Source of the DNA: Amyelois transitella
Taxonomy: Eukaryota > Arthropoda > Insecta > Lepidoptera > Pyralidae
Assembly (NCBI RefSeq): GCF_032362555.1
Contig: NC_083518.1
Location: 2,616,501 to 2,680,500, forward strand
DNA length: 64,000 nt
Direction: 5' to 3'
Positions within the stretch are counted from its first letter, which is position 1. The number at the start of each line of letters is the position of its first letter. The notes below the pieces were generated by a model. That model worked only from the letters and a program-made list of their open reading frames with translations, ran no database searches and was not told where the DNA came from. Below, piece by piece: positions 24,210 through 62,062 of this stretch. The position numbers and the translations under genes are program-made.

Positions 24210-25670
24210 TTATACGTCGTCCATCGCGCTTACAAATCCGTTAAAATGTAAACTTTTATTACTATAACTTTTGTATGGATTTCTAAGTCCGCCCTTCGGC
24301 GGTTCCGTGGTGTTAATTTTCGTCATGTTTTCATCGACGTGTTCGTCAGATATATTATTTTTTTCGTCCGATTCGGTGCGTTTTTCGTGCGTCAGTCCTG
24401 TTTTATCCAGTTTTTGAGAGTCGGATTTTTTGAGAATATTCTCTCCTTCTCTTCCACCGGTGACGATCATGATTTGCGGGGTGCTCATGGCCGTCATGTG
24501 GTCCTTGATGCACTGTTGTAGGATGTGCAGGAAAAAAAGGAACGCCAATAAGGTGAGCGCTGACATAGCCGCGTTGCTTTTTTGGTGACCTCCGCCGTGG
24601 TGGCTTCCGTGACTACTGATCAAGAAAAAAGAGAATATTATTTACAAAAAAGTAACGATTACAACACATGCCTAAAATGCACAATAATAAATTTATTTTA
24701 TGCGTGGAATATTTAAAAATTTACAATATGTACCAAAAATTAAAAAAAGAATCCACATTATTTAATACGCGGAAAAAACTAAAATTTTATGTTATAAATT
24801 TTGACGTAAAATTTTTAATGTGTTTTATTTTTGCCATAATGTATTTTGGCCGTTCATATTAACAATAATTAATTTCTTTCTTTTATGTTTATTTCCTTCA
24901 AAATAACCCACTTACAATTTATGTATGACTTCATGTTCGTGTACGTGCGGCACGGCCGCTGAAGGTTCATATCCATAGAACAGTTGCTCCTGCCCCGGAG
25001 CCCCGTACTCTGAAAATCTGGAAAGTAAACATGACCCTTTTTACTGATGTTCATAAAATAAACATTTACATTTTTATGTTCGTCTTTTGAAAATTCCTTG
25101 TTTTATGGAAATGGCGTTGTTTTAAATATTTAATTTAAGCTAGCTTTATGGAATCCAAAGATGAATTAAAAATTTTACGCAATTTCAATTGAAACATTAT
25201 GTCTCTACAAGAGAAAATAAAGATATTGTCGGTTCAGCAACGACTGTCAAGATATGTTCAAGCGTCGCCACTCGCCAAACGTGTGAAGCGAAATGGATTT
25301 CTTAAGTTTTAACCCTACGTACTATATTATACTGTACAAATAATATTTCTTATCACATTATTTATGTTTTTTAAATAGTTATTTGATTAGTAATGTAGTA
25401 CATTGATGTTATTGCCATTGCCCAGCATATACGGTATATAAATAAATAGCTTATCAACTTACTCAAATTCACTGCGAATTTTTATCTATTTACGCGTCAT
25501 TGAGTGAATCTTGGAAAAGAATGAAGAAAGGAGATGTTATGACGGTGGACTCACCTCTCCATAAGATGCTTCCCCGCACCCATCTGCGACAGTATCTTGT
25601 CCAACGTCATGCTGTCACCAAATTCAAGGTCTGACTGCGAAGGTAAGTTATGTCGCGCTCCGTAGTTCAT
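24210..25670 (-). CDS. Gene B: unnamed single-pass membrane protein, His-rich
   Basis: I do not recognise this protein. Three exons on the minus strand, 25555-25670, 24916-25017 and 24210-24615, give 207 residues; donors are GTGAGT and GTAAGT and all phases agree. The N-terminal part has no signal peptide. Residues 63-84 are His/Gly-rich (HVHEHEV, HGSHHGGGHQ), followed by one membrane helix (about 88-108, starting AAMSALTLLAFLFFL) and a polar, charged tail rich in Lys/Glu/Asp/Asn. The ATG at 25670 has an in-frame stop five codons upstream. It is therefore either the true start or the first codons after an unseen splice site, so an extra 5' exon is possible. The helix resembles that of gene D (same MS-x-T-LAFL pattern). 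The tail ends 20 bp from its poly(A) signal. I infer a plasma or organelle membrane location; the function is unknown. Confidence 0.8.
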
Positions 25671-26818
25671 ATGCTCTAGTTGTCATAAGATGCCTTGGAG
25701 ATTGATGTAGCGGTTTCTCCGCCATGTGGGGTTAAGGTTGACAGCCTTTGAACTGTTTGGAATACGTGCGTTTTATTTCTCGGAGATGATGGTGATATTT
25801 ACATGCTGGTTGGTACATTCTGGCCAACTTGCATTGTTGTATTGTATGTATCAAATCGCCTAAATCGTTTAGTTGATATTTATGGTTATTTATTTTTATA
25901 TAATAAAACTGAATCTTGGAACAATTCTTTTATTCATAAATAAAATATATTATTAGTTGATAGGGATTCTGGTCATAGTTATTTATTTTTATAATGAAAC
26001 TGACCATGTGATAGAAGGTTACATAGTATATTAAAAAAAAAAAACTGTATTTAAATATACATAACTAAAAATGCCGCTTATGTATCAGTAAGTTTAAACA
26101 TGGGTGGTTGTTTTAATATTCTGTCTAGAGTAATAAATCAACAATGTTAAAGTTTCCATCATGTAAACGGAAAATTATTAAGTACCTAATTAAGAATGGG
26201 ATAAATGAAAGAGTGTTTTGAAAATATTTCTTTTTATTTCACAACAATCACATACACGCAGGACGTCCTCAGGCATACAATTCCACACATTAAATATACA
26301 ATACTAACTATTAGGTGATACAAACAGTATTTATATCACACAGCATTATTTTTACATCAGTCGTTAATTATCGAGAACTGGCTGTATTGCTAATTGTTTA
26401 TTACCTAACATAAAAACAATTGCCAATAAATTGCAATTTATTAATTTTGCTCGTTTCACTGGACGGGAACATTTATTTTGGGTATATTTAATATTTGTTT
26501 TCCTACTTATTAACTTCTAGAATAAGTTAAATAAATAAATAATTTAAATAAATTAATAGAACACTAGGTTCGGCTCGCTCTTGACCGATGGGATACGTTT
26601 GAGCACAGCATGCCTTTAACAGATTAAGGCACTTTACGGAATAATTTGTCTACTGAATTTCGTTTCGATGCAAACGAAATTTAGTAGGCTGAAATTTTGA
26701 CTAATGTTAATTTCTCACTCGTTTCACCCAAATCACTAGTTGGAAATTTTTCTCCAATGGTTTGGTAAAATGTTGGTGTTGTCGATGAGGGGATTTATTT
26801 TGGCGATGGGTTTAGCCC
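25671..26818. other. Spacer between genes B and A
   Basis: AT-rich sequence holding the promoter side of gene B and the 3' untranslated region of gene A. TTTATT near 26229 (AATAAA on the minus strand) could end gene A transcripts. No other gene is seen. Confidence 0.5.
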
Positions 26819-29750
26819 TTAGACTTCGTTGCACTGGAGGTACATTTGGCGGCAGTCGACGCCGGAGCGGCCGAGGCGGCCTGCCTCGCTGAACTCTTCG
26901 AAACTACCGCCCGATTGCCTCTCCATCACGAAGCTTGCTGCGTATCTGTGAAGGGAGAGATATACGTATATTTTCTAATTTATACATTATTGAACGAATT
27001 AAAATGGTTTATAGTAAAAAGATTGGTAAGGGTTTGAATAACAACCCCTTTTTGTGTACAAAATCCGATCCAAGACTTTTCTGCTACTACTGAAGGTATT
27101 CTTGTTGTATCAAAAACATAAAAATCCCGACTTTAAAATCGTAGTATCATACACATATCACGTTATATCCACGGGAAAGACGTAGCCAACAGTCACAAGA
27201 CTCGAGGCCACTAATAGCTATTGTATCGCAGTATTGGTTTTTCTTTGATACAAGTTTTCAATTCAAACATCAGAGTCAAGAGGATATACAAGAAAAAGAA
27301 ACAATCAAGTTACTCACGTTCCAAGTTGACAGAAGACGCTCTTAGGGCCGATATCGCTAGAACACTCGAGGTTGGCGTCGCACACGTATTTCTGCAGACA
27401 TTTGTCGTCGTTAGTGCCGAACGACCTCACGTAGGTCTTCATCATGGCGATGCCAGCGAGGGCTGCGTCGCTGACGGAGTCCTTGCGACCCATGGATCTG
27501 GCGGCCAGGGAACGGTGGGAGAACGACGTCTTCAGGGCGTCCAAGAGGTTCACTACGATGTTGATGAACTGCGAACGGACGAAATCATGTTAGATCTTCA
27601 TTGCAAGTTGCAAAGGTACACCTTTTTCATTGAGGAATACGTTGGTGGAAGCAGGTGAGGCTGATTTGGAGAGAATTTCGTTAAAACTTTTAGTTTGGTT
27701 CAAAAGTACCGGGAATTTTTGGAAGAGTTTTATATATATATAGTGTTAAAAAGATATTAATATGTAAATTAAAACTATGTCATATTCATATTAGTCTCAA
27801 TCCTTGTAAAACCTAGTGAGATTAAAATCGATTCCGTGATGGAATATCTTTATAATCCCAATAATTCTAGAGTTACCTGATGTTTGGTTTAGTTACGTTA
27901 ACCGCGCGTTAAAAAGGAGAAGGGACAGGTCGCATACCTCTCCAGCCTGTTTTGCCATGGAGGCGACCTGGTCGGGATCTTTCGTACCGAGCACCGTCGA
28001 CAGTACCGCAGCCAAAATACCCTGAAGCAAGCGAGAAGCAACACCATCTCCATAACCAATTTTTACTATGTACACTCCAAATTTGGGAGCACCTCAAAGA
28101 AAAACACACGACGCTAATAAAGATCCCTTTATTGGTTACGATCTCTGAACTTCGATGAGGTTTCCCAGGAACGTGAAGCATATTAACCGTGTGAATTAAA
28201 AAGGTTTTACTAAACTACTCAATGGATTCTAATACCTGTTACATGTGAGGGTATACTAAGTGCTTTACACTATCGGAGTGACGATTTCTATTTATCTACA
28301 TTAATGTTAGTAGAGCAACATGGAATGAAATAGATTGTAATTTGTACATTTCAATTTGGTTTATCGAAACTTGTCTTACGGTGTAGTGATAAAGAATTGA
28401 TACGTACCTGCATGGGGGACGAGCCATTGTCGACTTTGTCAATGCCGTCGCTTGAAGGTCCTCCTCCGAGGATGGCCGTGAGGATCTTGAGTCCCATAGA
28501 GAACAGGTTCGCCCAAGGAGAGGGGGATGCGTCAGTGTCGATGTTGTCGCTCTTGTTGGGGCCAGTTGCTCCTGTGTTGAAGATCATCTGCATCAACATT
28601 CCTGAAAAAAGTATATTAAAAGTTTTTGATATTACATTGAAATTATTCTTATATTACTTATATTTAATATTTATTGTGCTTCAGTGCCGGTTCAAGCTTT
28701 CTATTTATTAAATTTAAACAATGCGTTTTGAAGCCAATATGATTAATATTGCTAAGTTTTTTGTTCTACCTGACTTAGATCTCTAAGTACGGCAACGTAA
28801 TTATTCGCCATTACACCTGTTTTCCTTTTCATTTCAAGCCAATAATAAGGTCGGAACATTACCAAGCACGTTTGACCACGAAAAGCCGCCGTCCGAGATG
28901 GAGTTGTTTTGTATTTCATCGATGTCATCAAGAGCCACTTTCTTCAGAGCGTTGGATTTCTCCGCGAATTTCCGCTCCTGGGCGATTTGCTCCGGCTGGT
29001 GTACTGGCAATGAATTGCTGTAGTATTGTGGGTTTTGTGTCCTTACGTTACTTGTAGCCTGAAAATAAACAAATTAATGTTCCTATTACATGTTTAATCA
29101 ATTTCGTAAGAGAACATGGATCTACTGTTATTTAGAACAATAAGAAAACATTTAGTTATGATCGATTGATCGTGCAACATTCTCAGTAAAAAGTTCTAAC
29201 GATACTCTAAAGATTTCGTATTACAATAATTAAAGAACTATAATAGCCATTAAATTAATTTTATAATCATTAGCATCTTGGTTTGTTACTCTAATTATTT
29301 TTTGTTGATGTTTGATAAAATGACTTAACTATCAGTTTATATATTTCATTAGGAGGATTCCGCCATATAACATGTGTGGGGCCTTCAGAGGTATCTAATG
29401 GAGAGTTTGGAGCCTTCGTCCTCTATGAAGGAAGGGGACTCTACACTCCCTGATTTGGAATCAGCCGGCGATTCAGCCAGTTAAAGTTGTAGTGCTTAAC
29501 AAGTTACCCAATAGATCTTGACACAAGTGTAATTCAATAAATCTGTTTTCCAAAAATCCTGAATTTAAGTGGACAAAAAGATCCATTAATGGATTTCCAA
29601 GATGGATTTTACTGGACGTAGTGAACTTCTCTCAGGGGGTTAGTGTACCTGTGATATAAGCGGGACGTGTTGCGGATACGCCAGCGTGTGGAGGATGGTG
29701 GACGAACTGATAAGCGCCAACAGCGCCCAGCCTGCTATCTTTGAATGCAT
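26819..29750 (-). CDS. Gene A: unnamed secreted cysteine-containing protein
   Basis: I cannot name this protein. Six coding exons on the minus strand (29649-29750, 28863-29058, 28408-28601, 27938-28021, 27318-27568 and 26819-26945) total 954 nt, or 317 residues, with all phases consistent. The ATG is the first base after a splice acceptor (TTTTCAG/ATG), so an upstream non-coding exon must exist; a candidate lies at 39171-39263. Residues 1-24 form a signal peptide. A polar, Gln/Asn-rich stretch follows, then Gly/Ala-rich hydrophobic helices (about 100-115, 130-150 and 165-200). The C-terminal domain has six cysteines (249, 255, 261, 272, 307 and 314). The C-x5-C and C-x6-C pairs recur in gene C. 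GC-rich third positions and strict phase argue for selection on the protein. I infer an extracellular or luminal role. It could be an epidermal or cuticle-associated protein, but nothing in the sequence proves this. Confidence 0.85.
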
Positions 29751-30684
29751 CTGAAAAGGAGAATCATCCGTAAGTAAAGTGGAAGTAAGTACCATTGACG
29801 ATATGTTACTTATTTGTAACAGGTTTTGAAATGACATCAGTTTAAAATATGTAAGTGGAATTTAATATTTTTTAACAAAGTGGAGTAACTATCTAACTTT
29901 CCATAGATTATATATTTAACGGTTGCCCGTTTTTCACGTGGTTTTATTTTCAGTCGATTAAATAACATAAAACTAACATCAAAATTTTAAATGACCTTTA
30001 CCGTTGCACAACTTACACCCATATGCATCTCAGAATCGTATGTGAGCGTATTTAATTAACTAAATGGACTTTCTTCTAATTTATTTGTGTTCTCGCGTTG
30101 GACGACGTCGCGTAGATTAGAAAGTGTTCTATGAGTAAATCGCGCAAATTGATTGCGGCGTTTGGAGTGGTTGGAAAGTAGCCCGTCTGCAGCTCCTGTG
30201 CATTTTTACGAGGATGCTGGGCTAATTGGAGGAAGTCTATTAGAGTAATTGCTGATGAATGTTACAATTGAACTGTCTCTGAGCAATGGAGAGAATTTTA
30301 ATCGCAGGTGTTTCCATTCAGAGTGATTTCTTTATCGGAAATCAACTTTGAATTACGCCGGCTTGGAGTATCTATTTCTATTATCGTAACTGCATTAGTT
30401 TTTATTTTATCGCAAGCAATCGCAAGTGTTTGTTCAAGATTCCCCTGTCACAATTTGGAATCTAACATAAAACTCCATCCAGTCTTTAGTGAACGGTGGC
30501 AATGAAAAACTACGAAAAGTTTTTGCCTGACATTGCATCAGTCGTTTGAATACCGTTACTGCATCCATTAAGACGCTTCACTTGCACCTATCCGGTCCAG
30601 AAGTGTGTTAGTAAAGTTGTATCCGACCTCGATTACGGTGACCGGGTCTTCGCTAACTGTAGTTCGGATGTCACCTCTTAGCCC

Positions 30685-31277
30685 AAGATCCCAGAGCCGT
30701 AAGACACAACTTATTTTCTAAAGAATGGATCTTTCGATTCTCAGTAGTCTTTCGTGTACTTTTAATACCTGCATGTTTGTGAGACTTGCCCGGTGACACG
30801 TGCGCAGGTACCAGGCGAGAAAGGTAACTAAAAATCACAGTTACTTAACTTAAATTTTTATGACTGATTTTTATATATATTTTATAGACTATTACTCTGA
30901 AGTCATATCAGAGAAGTCAGACGCTTTCCATGCGCCAGATCTTTTGTCAGACGCTTTAAAGCTCTATCAAAAAAAAATTAACTTAATTTATTTTTAAATG
31001 TCTGACTTTTATATATGTTATTCAGATAACTATTACAAAGTTGTATTAAATCAGTCAGACAGTTTGTAATGACCAAACACCCCTTAAACACAAGAATTAC
31101 TCAGCCTCGAGTATGAGCGCGATAGCACAATGCGCATGCGCGTCAGAGTAAATATCTAATATTTGAAAAGTACTTACTGTTTTCAATTTCATATTTTTGC
31201 ATATCTATTCAAATACGATGAAATTTATAATTAAAATAATAATTAATCATTTTTAAAATAATATAATATATTGCATA
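30685..31277. repeat. Foldback, left arm (593 bp)
   Basis: This arm starts AAGATCCCAGAGCCGTAAG and ends ATATTGCATA. It is repeated in reverse complement at 32079-32672 with only a few substitutions and small indels along its length. Confidence 0.92.
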
Positions 31278-31540
31278 TAAATAGGGGAAAATGAATTTTT
31301 TTGTAGCAATAGCCTTTCAAAAAGAATGATTTTTATTTTATTTAAAAAAATATATCTATTATAATAATTTCAATAAAAAATAATTAATTATGATTAATCA
31401 ATTGAATAATTATTTAATTGTCTCTTTATCATCTTCATCATCAGTTAAATTGTCGTTGCTGGCAGAATTTTCCGTAAAATTAAAATCATAAACAATTAAA
31501 AAATAGTATAGTAATAGTAAACCTATAACATATAAATATA

Positions 31541-31730
31541 AGTGAAAGGCGACTAAGGGATAGGCTTACAAACTTGGGATTCTTTTTTAGGCGATGGGCG
31601 AGCAACCTATCACTATTTGAATCTCAATTCTATCATTAAGCCAAATAGCTGAACGTGGCCATTTAGTCTTTTCAAGACTGTTGGCTCTGTCTACCCCGCA
31701 AGGGATATAGACGGGACCATATGTATGTAG
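31541..31730 (+). repeat. Interspersed 240-bp repeat, most of element
   Basis: It has the ordered blocks AAAGGCGACTAAGGGATAGG, AACTTGGGATTCTT, GGCGATGGGC, ATCATTAAGCCAAATAGC, TGAACGTGGCC and CTACCCCGCAAGGGATATAG. It lacks only the first 60 bp of the family. It is located in the loop of the foldback. Confidence 0.85.
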
Positions 31731-31753
31731 TCTACTTTAATTTCGACACCACC

Positions 31754-31824
31754 GCAACGGCTTCGATGGTCCAGTGGTTACCGCGTGAGACTGTGAAGTT
31801 GGCGGTCCGAGTTCGAGTCCCAAC
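31754..31824 (+). repeat. tRNA-derived SINE head or tRNA pseudogene
   Basis: The sequence GATGGTCCAGTGGTTA resembles a tRNA A box, and GAGTTCGAGTCCC a B box, at the correct distance. No acceptor stem can be formed, so it is not a working tRNA gene. Confidence 0.5.
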
Positions 31825-31979
31825 AATAACAAGATATATATTAATTTTTATTTATTAAAAATATTTTTTTTTGTGTTGTTTGAGTATTTATTAAAAAAAC
31901 TGAAAATCAAAATACTACATATCATCATACGGTAAAAATATTTTGTCTGTACATTTAATATTTTGACTGAAACAAATAG

Positions 31980-32078
31980 AGAATTTTTTTTTACATTTTT
32001 GTCTGTCTGTCTGTATCAGACTGTATGATTAAGATTCAACTCGAACTTTACGCGGACGACGTCGCGGGCAACAGCTAG
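31980..32078 (+). mobile_element. Helitron-like 3' fragment in the foldback loop
   Basis: Contains GCGGACGACGTCGCGGGCAA followed by CAGCTAG and then T, the terminus shared with 50593-50596. It is truncated on the left. Confidence 0.5.
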
Positions 32079-32672
32079 TATGCAATATATTATATTATTT
32101 TAAAAATTATTAATTATTATTTTAATTATAAATTTCATCGTTTTTGAATAGATATGCAAAAATATGAAATTGAAAACAGTAAGTACTTTTCAAATATTAA
32201 ATATTTTACTCTGACGCGCATGCGCATTGTGCTATCGCGCTCATACTCGAGGCTGAGTAATTCTTGTGTTTAAGGGGTGTTTGGTCATTACAAACTGTCT
32301 GACTGATTTAATACAACTTTGTAATAGTTATCTGAATAACATATATAAAAGTCAGACATTTAAAAATAAATTAAGTTAATTTTTTTTTGATAGAGCTTTA
32401 AAGCGTCTGACAAAAGTTCTGGCGCATGGAAAGCGTCTGACTTCTCTGATATGACTTCAGAGTAATAGTCTATAAAATATATATAAAAATCAGTCATAAA
32501 AATTTAAGTTAAGTAACTGTGATTTTTAGTTACCTTTCTCGCCTGGTACCTGCGCACGTGTCACCGGGCAAGTCTCACAAACATGCAGGTATTAAAAGTA
32601 CACGAAAGACTACTGAGAATCGAAAGATCCATTCTTTAGAAAATAAGTTGTGTCTTACGGCTCTGGGATCTT
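32079..32672. repeat. Foldback, right arm (594 bp)
   Basis: The reverse complement of the left arm (30685-31277), about 97-98% identical by eye. The outer ends mirror each other exactly to AAGATC/GATCTT, with no clear target-site duplication outside. Confidence 0.92.
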
Positions 32673-33929
32673 ACTCTATCTCCCACCTGCCTCAATAAGG
32701 TGCTAGTTATATAAATTGACGTAAATTTGTGATGACCGTTAGTCACGACCGACTAGGACTACACTTTCTTCTCAAATATTTGACACCAGCTGCAGTTATT
32801 ATTCGTTGTAATAGTTGCGTCACGAAACCGCTGTGCAAACGTCGACAATTTGTTCCGTTTTAATTAGTTTGTTTATTAAATTCTCTTAAAACTTAGATAA
32901 CACACAAAATATACTTTATTTTCGTTAGCTGCGGCATGTTGAAATAATTTTATACATTTAACTTATAACCAGTGCTCGTTGAGTGCCTTTGAAATAATAC
33001 GCGTATGCCTTACGTCAAGTATATGCAGTTTTCTCTCCGCCTCGAATATCAAGTGACACAGTCGGTTTTCTTGTGTTTCTAAGAGGAAAATTACAAACGT
33101 AGATATCGAGTTGCGTCGGCGCACCGGAGCCGACAGCACCGAGATTCTTTCCGGAGAAATTTGTCGTTGCCTTTGCGGATTAAGTATCGAGGATTGAGAG
33201 TTGCAACATTGTAAATATTGTATATCCTACAGAAGACACTTGTTTTCAAAGTTGCAAGATTTTCCTTGTAAAATTAAAGCTTAAGTTTAAAATATTTTTC
33301 GCAGTCACAATTATTTTTAAAGACGTTAAAAATAAAAATTTCTTATACCAATCTTTTCCAAAATGTGGTTTTAACAGTCATTTGTTGTTTACATTTAATG
33401 GTTAGCTGTGACACAAATACACAGTAATGTTACGTCCAAGTTTTTCCAAAATAGTACAATGCCACATTCGTCAACGCAGTGGCGTGACAATCGAAGTTAG
33501 TGCCAGAGAAAGCGGGAAGTGGTTTGGAAAGGCGCGACGGAAATGCAATAAGTATTAATGAGTCATAATGATTATCAATAAGTGTCATGTGTTATAATGA
33601 TTGACTCCATTCATTGATCTCAGTTTGGTCGGAGATGGATAAAACATAAACATAATATAATTCACCTAAGGAATATTGGTAGTTTAAACTCCACTTTATA
33701 CAGTATTTATTCTTTCTGATCCAAGGTGGTCCATCAGAAAAGTAAACCTTGGCGGGCTGCAAAAGTCTAACTAACTGGTAAGTTGCCACCGAAGAAAAAA
33801 CATTGTTTGCCCACCGTTCTTATTCAAATTCTTTGGCTTCTGAGGATTACAATGTTCGTCTTAAAATATTATTCTGTTCGTATATATATCGTACCTACTC
33901 ATAATTTCTAATCGGCTTTCTTAAAGGGC

Positions 33930-50469: not shown

Positions 50470-50596
50470 CTTGGTCCAACTGAATAAATACAAAATTTTC
50501 ATCCCGCCTTCATCTTCCCCAGCCCTCTAGGGGCATTACGGGGGTTCGCTTTTTCAGTGAACTTTTACGGCAATTGAATTCGCGGGCAACAGCTAG
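50470..50596 (+). mobile_element. Helitron-like 3' fragment
   Basis: The terminus GCGGGCAACAGCTAG followed by T is identical to the one at 32064-32078. The upstream sequence is truncated or diverged. Confidence 0.45.
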
Positions 50597-50995
50597 TAAA
50601 TGTATATAATTGTTTCAGCAATTGAGGTGCCCAGTGCCCACACATTTCCCCGCCGCTTATTATCTTGTTTCGTCAAAGATACGTTTCGTTTTGATTTTTT
50701 CCGCGGCCACTTTCTCCGACTGACCGCTACCACAAAATTAACGAGTTGCAGATGTGGAGAGATGATACAAAAAATTGTTGTAAAATAAGTAATTAAAGTG
50801 TAAAAGTATGTTCTGCAAGGGTTAAATGGTCATAGTAAATGAAATATGAAACGTGTCAATTTTATGTTTGTAAAATTTGGTCAGGAGATTTTTAAGTTAA
50901 TATTCTTATTTCTAAGGTCTTTATGTTCCTACTGGCGTTAGAGCCGGTTGCGTCTTCACCTCTCTGTGTTTTTAGTTACCTTACAGCTCTATTTT

Positions 50996-54661: not shown

Positions 54662-55898
54662 CCGTAACTGGTTTTGTTTTGATTTATGAAATACTTTGGT
54701 CATTGTTTGATATCCATGAACTTGGAGCATAGAAATATCTGTAAATTGTAGCTTGATCTATTAGTTTCAAGCGACTTGATGAAGTGAGTAATATGTGATG
54801 AATAAAACAAGTACATATAACGGTTTATAAAATACTCTCAGGCTAAGGATTAAGAAGTAATAAAGTATAAAAAAATTATAAGTACAAACTATGAATCAAT
54901 ATAGACACTTCATCCTCGAACTCCATAAATACTATGCTTAATTAATTCCTATATATACTTTGTACATTTAATATTTTGCTTAAGATTTAAGTTATGAAAA
55001 TATTGGTAAACCTCCATTTTTTGAAAAGGCCTAAATATAATATTATTATGTCCATGCTTTACGCATGTGTCGGAAGGAAATACGCGAGCACGGGGCTATA
55101 TATAAATATGATTTAAAGAGCGCAAGAGATATTTAGACGTGATAACGAACCTTATCGATAAAGCAGGCAACAATAAATTACAAACAATCAAGTTGGGATA
55201 CAACATATAAGTAACACGTGGGACTATAAGATTCCCGGAAAACAAGAGCTTAAAGTGCCAGCTAGTTAAGTTTTAGTAGTTAGTGCAGCTTTTCTTATTT
55301 TAACAACATGTGCACACGCCAAGCAGTCTGCGGTTGTCGTGACGTGATGTAATGTAACAGACATTTTATAATTGTTGGCAGGCTCGGGTAAATGACCTCT
55401 TATGTAAGGAACACGCTTATATTACGTTGGTTTGGTTGAGACTGACAGCAGAGATCAAAAAATTCCATCAGACTAGATCTTTCTTTTTTAGACCATATAT
55501 GAAGGCGGCGAACGATCAAAATGGATTTATTGTGTTTGGTAGATAGTATGGAGAAAAGCTGAACCAGAATGAATGTTAGGTCCCCCATGAGATGAACTGA
55601 CCAAATTAAAATTAAGGCGGCAATAAAATACCCTGTTCATAAATGCATATGTTTGTTATGGTTTACTAAGAGCTCCGATTTAATGGCGTTGTATAACAAA
55701 ACTTCTCACTCAAATCTTCTTTATTGCCAACACTTTTTCTTTGTCTTCTTGGAAATCCCGTCTGCTTACTAAAATTTACTGCTTTGAATATTTTAATCGG
55801 TTATTCCGTGTTCGCCAAACCAAAGCTCTAGTTATTGAAATACATAAAAAAATAAGGTGAAAATTAACACAAGTGTTAGCTAATTTTTAATAGTAAAA
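54662..55898. other. Spacer, no feature seen
   Basis: AT-rich sequence between the candidate exons and the stop codon of gene C. It probably includes the 3' untranslated region of gene C. No repeats or frames of note. Confidence 0.5.
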
Positions 55899-57600
55899 TC
55901 ATTCAGACAGATCACAATCTTTATGTTTCTGTTCGCATGTGTCCCCACTTTCTCTAATTTCCTCCGCTGTCGGCAGGTGGCGGTACATTATGTCAGCTCC
56001 ACGTAACCCTTTCAAATTATCAGTAATATTGTCCTTGTCAAAAACCGCATCTTGCATCTTATGTACAAATGGTGTTATCTTGCAAACTAGAAGCCTGATG
56101 CAACTGGTGTCTTCATCTTGTTGTTTGATAGCTTCGTCGATGTCATGCAAAATGGATTCGTTTTTAGCTCTTTCTAGTAAGTCTTGGAGGCTCCTGGAGT
56201 TCTTGTTGAGGATCCAGGATGTTGGATCTTCGGTGCGATAAGGTTTTGATGGCCGGGGTGGGCCTGCCAGGAAGGTTGATATCTGAAATGTGTAAAAATA
56301 TTGGTTGAGATTGGTAAGTGTTTACAGGGATCAGACTAATTTTCAGGCTGGAGTAAAACTTAGCTAATTGTTAAAACAGAATATTTGGTATCATTTATAT
56401 CTTCGGTAAAACTGTTAATCCAATAGCTGATAATGTATTATTGTTTAAATAAACTTTGACGAGAGACAACTTTCTCAAAATGATTTATTTCTCTCACAAG
56501 AATTTACCCAAAGGCAGATCACAAACGAGAGTATCTTCTTATTTTTGTGTAAATATCGAAATACCTAGAGTTTGTATATTTATTTTTGTTACCTTTTCAC
56601 ATTTTATTTACACAACCTTCTTTTTTGAAATTTCATTAAAATACTGAATTAAACTTTCATCCCAAAAAAAATAATATTACATGAGATTTACGGTAAACGT
56701 AAAAGACGTAGAAGCTGCGAAATCTCATGCTTTGGCTAGTATTTGGCTATATTTATTTTAGAATAGATAAAATTGTTTTTTTTTCAACTCACCATTTGCG
56801 CTACAAACACAAGCGCGTTTACAGCCACCGCGCTGATTTGATTGGGCTGCAACCCAATCAGCTTCACCAAATACTTCAACGGTGTCATCGGACTTGGAGC
56901 CTCATTTACACTGTTATTCGGTCTATTTTCCTCCGCCAAGTTCTCTGAGCTGGCATCTTCATATGCTTCACTGAAGATTGGTCGTCGTCTGTTTGGTGTT
57001 GGTGAATGTTGGTGATGAGTTGGGGAGTTTGGTGTTGGCATATGTTGGTGCTGGTTTGCAGTATTGGCTGTCTGGAATGCCCGAACCACGAATTCCGCTA
57101 CTTTTGATGCCACTGATTCTGAAGCTGTAAATAAGGTAATTGGTTTTCTTAAAACTGATGAAATCTTAGGATAATTGACAATAAAAAAAAAAATACTTGA
57201 CGTGGAGAATTCGTTTTCGGCAATCCGGTTTAAATAGAATTAAGTGATAGAACTTCTGTTCTATCACTATGTATTTGCAAATATTTATAAGAACTTTTTG
57301 TAAGGCTAGCGCCGTCTCTATTTGAATCTCAGCCATAACTACAGCTGAACATGGCCTTTCAGACATTTTAGAGAATATTGGCTCTGTTTTCCCCGTTATA
57401 GATTAACACGTGATTGCGTATGTGTGTGCAAAATACACACGTGTATTAGAATGTTTCATTAGGAACTTACCTAAAAAATCAGACGCAAACTTCATCCCTC
57501 CACTCAATCTATCTATAAAACCTTCTCTCCCTTCGCGTTCAAAATCATTTGCACACACCAATTTTACTACTAAAATTACTAAAAATACGGGTGTCGCCAT
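55899..57600 (-). CDS. Gene C: unnamed secreted protein related to gene A
   Basis: I cannot name this protein. Three exons on the minus strand (57471-57600, 56793-57124 and 55899-56282) total 846 nt, or 281 residues, with phases consistent. The first ATG (57600) begins a clear signal peptide (MATPVFLVILVVKLVCA). Then come an amphipathic segment, a His/Pro/Asn-rich linker with a repeated short motif (PTPNSPTHHQHSPTPNRRRP, about 68-87), a hydrophobic stretch (about 122-152), and an acidic C-terminal domain with four cysteines (215, 221, 270 and 277). The spacing C-x5-C and C-x6-C is the same as in gene A, suggesting common descent and two disulfide bonds. It faces gene D head to head, 1.4 kb away. 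The protein is probably secreted; its function is unknown. Confidence 0.82.
57243..57268. repeat. Hairpin with 11-bp perfect stem in intron 1 of gene C
   Basis: AGTGATAGAAC and its exact reverse complement flank the 4-nt loop TTCT. No other copy is seen in the window. Confidence 0.5.
57315..57428 (+). repeat. Interspersed 240-bp repeat, eroded 3' half
   Basis: It keeps TTTGAATCTCA, AGCTGAACATGGCC, TTGGCTCTGT and a GTGATTGCGTATGTGTG tail. It lies in intron 1 of gene C, antisense to the gene. Confidence 0.6.
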
Positions 57601-57696
57601 CTTGAGAGCCACTTTGAGACTACATTGAAGACGGGAGAAGTGACGCGCTCTGCTGAACGAGGTAACAAGCGCGTGCGCAACTGTCGTAGACCATGG

Positions 57697-57703
57697 CTTT
57701 ATA
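57697..57703 (-). promoter_or_regulatory. Possible TATA box of gene C
   Basis: TATAAAG on the minus strand, about 100 bp before the gene C start codon. I saw no clear initiator at the expected distance, so the call is tentative. Confidence 0.3.
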
Positions 57704-59033
57704 ATGAATGTCTTTCTAAAGCTAGGGGATGTTAAAAAAATATTCTTGGGAGCTAAATTTTTTATTTCATTGGGAAGATGACATGTTTTCTCTATTCAAT
57801 ATAGATATTTATTATTTTAATTGGTTCGTCTTGCATAGGTTAGATGGCGCTACTGGTATTTTTTTTATTGTAAAATTCCCTGCATACGAAAGGTGAAATT
57901 GAGAAATAGCGACAATTACAACGTCTAATTACCTACTTTAGTAATGCATTTTATAATCCTATATGTCTCTATAATAATCCTTTAGTTGAAAATGAGGTAT
58001 ATAAACTAAACTAGGATATCAAAGTTATTCTGTAAAGGTCTTATAAAGTGACTTAGGGTTAATGAGCTCATATCGTTTTGAAGTGGGGCCAGAAACCTAG
58101 AGAATTTACAATAGCGTCCTCAATACATTAAAATAAATGGTTATTTTTTAAAACAAATGCTGTTTTTCCTGTGAAAACAGCATTTGCGACGTTTTTCTTT
58201 CGACTGACATCAATATATCCCTGGGATAACTTTTCATATTAGCTGTTAGTGCTCCTGTCCCTTAGTTGGTTTATCGACTGAGGCATACAGAAGTCTTATA
58301 AATAAGAATGACCAATATGAGAAGAGAGAAGAGAATTAGGAAGAATTGAAACTGGATATTTTTGAACACCCTGTGTTATAGAGACATTTACAGAAACAAT
58401 GGCTGCGGCAATCTGCTGAGCATTACTACAGCAAATGTGTAGAAGGTATGCCTCATAACTTTTGCCAATGCCACTACTTGACTTGAAATATTTTGTAAGT
58501 ATCTTGTACCCAAAATATTTCTTAGGTTGAAAATAATAGTCGTGAAAATTTAAACAGATCACAACGTATTTGTCGTTTTCTTTTCTTTCATTTCCAATTT
58601 ATAAAACAAACTGTTAAACTACCTACCAATAAGCAATAAAAATATCCTTTCAATCTGTAGGGAAGTAAATAAAATGAATTGTTTATTGACTTTTCAAATT
58701 CACAAACCTGAAAGTCAATCAAGTTAAATAATTTTTTTGGAAATATTTATATCAGAATAAATGCGCTTTTGGGATAGGCAAATAATAATTTCACGATTCT
58801 GTAACTTTGGTATTCGCTGATGCTGCATATTCTTTCGCCATCATATGTTTGAAAAGTCGGCTGACCTCGGTCTGATTAAATATAAAAATAAATTCTGGTC
58901 TAAATGCGAAGTATCACCCATTACTTTACTTAGCTAAACGCTGTGACCTGTATGTTTAACGTGAGATGTGCTCCGTAGACCACAGTAATAGGACATTGTG
59001 ACAGCCACAAAGCCACGGAGTAAACGTCTCGAA
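57704..59033. other. Shared upstream region of genes C and D
   Basis: This spacer between two divergent starts contains a 13-bp hairpin (58154-58186) and a TATAAAAA motif at 58881, about 150 bp before gene D. No other gene is supported. Confidence 0.5.
58154..58186. repeat. Hairpin with 13-bp perfect stem between genes C and D
   Basis: CAAATGCTGTTTT and its exact reverse complement flank the 7-nt loop TCCTGTG. It is too short for a typical animal microRNA precursor. Confidence 0.6.
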
Positions 59034-61820: not shown

Positions 61821-62062
61821 ATACATACATACATACATATGGTCACGTCCATATCCCATGCGGGGTAGACAGAGCCAACAGTCTTGAAGACTAAATGGCC
61901 ACGTTCAGCTATTTGGCTTAATGATAGAATAGTGACAGGTTGCTAGCCCATCGCCTAAAAGAAGAATCCCAAGTTTATAAGCCTATCCCTTAGTCGCGAC
62001 ATCCATGGAAAAGAGATGGAGTGGTCCTATTCTTTTTTGTATTGGTGCCGGGAACCACACGG
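61821..62062 (-). repeat. Interspersed 240-bp repeat, fullest copy
   Basis: Read on the minus strand it starts with the hairpin GTGTGGTTCCCGGCACC and runs through GGACCACTCCATCTCTTTTC, CGACTAAGGGATAGGC, AACTTGGGATTCTTC, GGCGATGGGCTAGCAACC, AAGCCAAATAGCTGAACG and GTCTACCCCGCATGGGATAT. It ends in an ATGTATGTATGTAT tail. The TATG microsatellite tail marks the 3' end. It is the reference copy for the family in this window. Confidence 0.88.

Follow-up and report, generated by a model that had tools for sequence, protein, structure and literature searches.

The foldback structure at 30679-32678 of the window (the whole 64,000-nucleotide stretch of Amyelois transitella DNA that was analysed) is one copy of a family that is real, young and mobile. 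The family is known in kind; what is unusual about it is a target site duplication (TSD) of 3 bp, the unlike tips of its two arms and the visible exchange between them. The element is quite probably a foldback DNA transposon of the "two-TIR" type that is non-autonomous and was active recently, having an origin by end copying, arms that recombine with each other, unlike tips, TAG...CTA ends and a 3-bp TSD.

Self-comparison of the window gives two inverted blocks. The larger (30685-31152 paired with 32205-32672) has 468 nt that are 100% complementary, an arm pairing that cannot be attributed to chance. The smaller (31150-31277 with 32079-32206) has 128 nt at 98%. The nearly identical inverted arms of about 600 bp reported in the first-pass annotation are thus present. 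Comparison with 56 copies places the ends of the element six bases beyond the arm boundaries given there, on both sides, resulting in a total length of 2000 bp. When these tip bases are included, the left arm has 599 nt and the right arm 600 nt, separated by a loop of 801 bp. The arms have eight differences: three adjacent tip bases (30682-30684 versus 32673-32675), four internal substitutions and one 1-nt indel. The features of the window copy are as follows.

30676..30678, no strand: left TSD, TCT (from the sequence, with ends and TSDs set from 56 copies)
30679..31277, plus strand: left arm (TIR), 599 nt, with beta tip TAGCCC, a one-base variant of the usual TAGTCC
31278..31443, plus strand: inner part that continues the arm (from blastn comparison of the window element with L062, L065 and L066)
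31410..31474, minus strand: last-exon remnant, ENSASNDNLTDDEDDKETIK* (translation of the window, compared with L065)
31540..31840, plus strand: other loop repeats
32066..32078, plus strand: GGGCAACAGCTAG, situated exactly on the border between loop and right arm
32079..32678, minus strand: right arm (TIR), 600 nt, with alpha tip TAGAGT
32679..32681, no strand: right TSD, TCT (from the sequence and the 56-copy comparison)

Judged by its recognizable parts, the loop consists of half of a former extended arm, an exon remnant, dispersed repeats and GGGCAACAGCTAG. The segment at 31278-31443 is found in both arms of L062, L065 and L066, which are about 760 bp long, and the window copy keeps only the left-hand one. 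The splice acceptor of the last exon, TTTTTACAG in L065, is altered to TTTTACGG in the window. Among the repeats, the region at about 31549-31729 recurs at 61830-61997 and partially at five further places in the window. The sequence GGGCAACAGCTAGT occurs at 32066-32079 and 50584-50597 of the window and in the one-armed copy L044, whose similarity to the window element stops at the same border between loop and right arm; we take this sequence, and GGGCAACAGCTAG within the element, to be a Helitron-like 3' terminus. The longest stop-free stretch inside the window element is 63 codons, and neither a tRNA gene (ARAGORN) nor an Rfam match was found in it. The absence of coding capacity, claimed earlier, therefore holds for the window copy, but its loop retains the last-exon remnant and longer copies retain a stretch of 126 amino acids. 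A different type of loop was read directly in L063 and L067, and L051, L057, L064 and L068 show similar gaps relative to the window loop. The alternative loop of L063 and L067 contains sequence starting CTAGCGACCCGCCCCGGCTTCGC, probably a different inserted repeat.

The family was sought in the host genome, which comprises 327 Mb in 33 contigs. A search with one arm, in which 40 of 271 candidates were scored, gave at least 42 matches, 40 of which cover nearly the full arm at 99-100% identity; the two arms of the window are among them. The exact 21-base arm tip occurs 125 times in forward and 128 times in reverse orientation, and the same pattern read backwards, used as a control, does not occur at all. 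With two tips per copy, these numbers correspond to more than a hundred copies. The first 100 tip places listed are mostly paired, about 2 kb apart. The loci fetched for comparison were the best arm matches and 20 odd-length or unpaired places from the tip list. Distinct copies having both exact 15-base tips make up the comparison set (n=56), which is biased toward copies most similar to the window arm and leaves out those with a mutated tip or a single arm, such as L044, L067 and L070. The shortest form described here, L058 (G000:C2:11178276-11178560), is a mini copy of 297 bp with the TSD ATG, in which one arm is represented by about 255 bp and the other by about 31 bp. It may hint at how little of one end suffices for an element, or it may be the product of a later deletion. 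Mariner-like transposase sequences adjoin two of the loci studied, at L071:159-1346 (an open frame of 395 amino acids) and in L067 from about 4690.

The ends of the copies are sharp. TAG followed by three tip bases and AAGATCCCAG..., or its mirror, is found at 56 of 56 left ends and 55 of 56 right ends, so that the element runs from TAG to CTA. Directly outside, a matching 3-bp TSD is present in 51 of the 56 copies (all except L002, L033, L034, L054 and L065), compared to a mean of 7.0 and a maximum of 15 when the flanks were shuffled (2000 trials). TAA (13 copies) and TTA (12 copies) are the commonest TSDs. Upon joining the flanks and searching for paralogous sites, empty sites were found, among the matches listed, that lack both the extra TA and one 3-mer. 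The joined flanks of L047 match L054 at 96% over 202 bases, and those of L025 match L024 and L067, with about 86% identity; for L004, many copies of a dispersed repeat provide the match. In some alignments of joined flanks, for example those of L016, the gaps differ in size. The TSDs and the clean empty sites together show insertion of the cut-and-paste type with a 3-bp TSD, and not that of a TA element.

The exon remnant belongs to a gene of which more is preserved in other copies. In L065 and L066 the arms of about 760 bp include the end of the last exon, and a frame of 126 amino acids from the same gene is situated between them. This frame has relatives elsewhere and aligns to residues 672-769 of P0002, a 39% relative. 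With a C-terminal peptide of 57 residues, tblastn gives matches in 56 of 72 sequences, a set that contains overlapping loci. The remnant in the window is not as long; it escaped this search at E 1e-3 and was recognized by translation. P0002 is an open frame of 809 amino acids on the minus strand of L071:1773-4199 (G000:C32:5300072-5302498) and belongs to a multi-copy protein family, with three near-identical copies on contig C32 and further copies that are mostly broken. Two of the three gene copies on C32 lie within a longer near-identical duplication and therefore do not reveal the ends of an autonomous element; no complete autonomous copy is present among the fetched loci. Searches of Pfam, NCBIfam and PDB gave no match to P0002, the three frames upstream of it likewise have none in Pfam, and six peptide patterns sought in IMG/VR gave no confirmed relative. 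The single Pfam match of P0001, to Reprolysin_5 at E 0.17, is below threshold. When the C-terminal half of P0002 is read by eye, the motifs EADT...SDTD...GCD are found, which we take as a lead toward the FEN/XPG nucleases that they resemble.

Arms so nearly identical could also have come from an isolated inverted duplication of recent date or from an artifact of assembly, both raised in the first-pass annotation. These are contradicted by more than a hundred dispersed copies having the same tips, by their TSDs and by the empty sites, and there is practically no chance that either is correct. The annotation's description as a young foldback element is correct. The copies are numerous, independent and dispersed and have 3-bp TSDs, and their arms differ on average by 0.54% from the column consensus. 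An element of the Tc1/mariner type with TA duplications is scarcely credible. TA does occur at the two ends of almost every copy, and the genome is rich in such genes, with at least 150 scored DDE_3 matches (1339 candidates), but what is duplicated in 51 of 56 copies is the three bases outside TAG..CTA, and a TA duplication is refuted by the clean empty sites, from which TA and one 3-mer are missing.

A MITE-like family of the PIF/Harbinger type, having a 3-bp TWA TSD and mobilised by a Harbinger transposase, with the gene remnant in the loop as a passenger, agrees in part with the TSDs, which have the right length and are TTA or TAA in 25 of the 51 matching cases. This explanation is nevertheless unlikely. 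The remaining 26 of the 51 are not TWA, and Harbinger ends begin with GGG or GGC whereas those found here start with TAG. The presence of the exon remnant in most of the sequences searched with the C-terminal peptide is, moreover, what would be expected of the element's own gene.

The two ends of a copy are not alike. An alpha end, TAGAG(T/C), is paired with a beta end, TAGTCC or a one-base variant of it, in 55 of the 56 copies, the exception being L065, in which the right end departs from this pattern. What differs consistently is AG versus TC directly behind TAG; at the third position alpha ends have T or C and beta ends have C. In a comparison of 40 arms of each kind, three duplicate loci included, these three tip columns are the only ones in which the commonest base differs between the end types. 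The most likely cause would be a transposase that requires one end of each kind and thereby keeps the tips unlike, in which case the difference would be maintained by selection.

Exchange between the arms was studied with 37 distinct copies, each about 2 kb long. On average, the two arms of a copy differ by 0.77%, while arms from different copies differ by 1.01% when taken from the same end and by 1.03% when taken from opposite ends. A derived variant is present in both arms in 34 of 202 copy-by-variant cells, compared to a mean of 6.1 and a maximum of 14 with shuffled partners (1000 trials). Shared descent of variants already present in both arms inflates this count; a variant inherited in both arms must itself, however, have reached both at some time. 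Of 17 doubletons, six unite both arms of a single copy, and eight unite same-end arms from different copies. Among the 21 variants occurring in at least three arms, nine are found in both arms of some copy, ten are restricted to a single end type, and two occur at both end types, never within one copy. An arm has its own partner as nearest relative in only 6 of 80 cases, duplicates included. The one-end variants and the small number of partner-nearest arms show that conversion is partial.

The orientation of the loop relative to the tips, determined by strict rules, agrees in 32 of the 37 copies and is inverted in five, namely L001 (the window copy), L017, L024, L038 and L039. By looser rules applied to the 56 copies, 41 have the major orientation, seven are inverted and eight are undecided. 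The five inverted copies occupy four places in the loop tree, where L024 and L038 cluster with full support and the others stand apart; support is low at many nodes and is 0.35 at that of the window copy. The one-armed L044 has the same arrangement of tip and loop as the window copy, and the flip of the latter may thus be older than its insertion. Conversion and crossing-over between the arms are probably the simplest account of the shared variants and the flips, an exchange of tips instead of crossing-over being an alternative explanation of the flips.

Assuming such recombination, the history of the family might be pictured as follows. The ancestor would have been a gene-carrying element in which one end and part of the last exon were copied, inverted, over the other end, giving rise to arms of about 760 bp. 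In copies resembling that of the window, one inner side would later have been replaced, leaving arms of about 600 bp. Recombination of the arms would be ongoing, with conversion moving mutations from arm to arm and crossing-over inverting the loop. Mobility would depend on a transposase supplied elsewhere, with TAA/TTA favoured as target. Recent activity of the family is likely. The mean divergence of 0.54% is a lower bound on its age, because conversion makes arms more alike and the copies compared are biased toward similar ones. That the arms are nearly identical is due to the youth of the family and probably to arm-to-arm conversion as well, so this insertion cannot simply be dated by it.

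The long near-identical inverted arms, dispersed copies and TSDs place the family in the Foldback structural class. Foldback elements are known chiefly from P- and Mutator-type transposons. Mutator-like foldbacks have longer TSDs, about 9 bp for Mutator/Foldback, and by its TSD of 3 bp the present family is excluded from that group and differs from Tetris and Tm1. It shares with these two the long inverted arms for which, in the excerpts cited, they are termed foldback elements (PMC4079207, PMC3169594). In the excerpt concerning Galileo, a P-superfamily element of Drosophila, the non-autonomous 2-TIR copies average 1.7-2.2 kb and consist almost wholly of long TIRs, the TIRs have lengthened through recruited internal sequence, and close inverted repeats are suggested to attract recombination (PMC3573991). 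The present family is similar in size, in its long-TIR make-up and in the probable growth of its TIRs from internal sequence. It differs in having 3 bp and TAG...CTA ends instead of the 7-bp bounding sequences described there (PMC3573991), a TSD length that excludes the P superfamily. Furthermore, no P-type transposase was seen here, and the end types are set apart by tip bases alone.

The 3-bp TSD and the resemblance of the protein family, by eye, to FEN/XPG nucleases, taken together, point to a possible kinship with Academ (AcademX). The AcademX nuclease is of the XPG type. Academ elements are not known to us to have long foldback arms, and in this respect the present family differs. The likeness lies in the TSD, given as 3 or 4 bp in the cited part of the AcademX report and found here, with a length of 3 bp, in 51 of 56 copies; a nuclease is said there to be encoded (PMC10045372), and the remnant here is nuclease-like by eye. 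Excerpts of two further reports record Academ in Lepidoptera (PMC5704228) and describe it as widespread in arthropods (PMC6327564). No description of the foldback family was found in the titles and abstract openings of the literature listed on Lepidoptera foldbacks, long-TIR elements, Academ, Galileo and hairpin RNAs.

The window copy is plausibly situated in intron 1 of gene A, a minus-strand gene, and this intron would extend from about 39.17 to 29.75 kb, in agreement with the position proposed earlier. The sequence signals are a TATA-like stretch directly upstream of 39.26 kb, a splice donor CAAAG/GTAAGC at about 39.17 kb, and, at about 29.75 kb, an acceptor TTTTCAG/ATG followed by an exon that resembles a signal peptide and is the first coding exon of the gene at 24-39 kb. 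Minus-strand frames at 24213-29752 and 55897-57795 suggest two multi-exon genes; two frames of the 24-39 kb gene have no Pfam match above cut-off. This placement, and a predicted arm duplex of -997 kcal/mol, would suit retention of the copy as a source of hairpin RNA serving as an siRNA or ADAR substrate. It is, however, very improbable that the copy was retained for this reason, as its arms are 0.5% and 0.8% from the column consensus, similar to the mean of all arms, and nothing seen distinguishes it from other copies.

The family might tentatively be viewed as an Academ-like, nuclease-encoding foldback lineage in which the arms are a recombination device and the tip difference of two or three bases is under selection because the transposase pairs unlike ends. 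If this is true, as few as two bases would specify the two unlike ends, and nearly 600 bp would be kept alike by conversion while crossing-over flips the loop. The family also connects a mobile element with a protein family that bears no Pfam name, and offers many arm pairs of about 600 bp for RNA studies. Because its young copies exceed a hundred, end sharply, can be compared with empty sites and show sharing and flipping between arms that can be measured, it makes the growth and upkeep of long arms directly testable.
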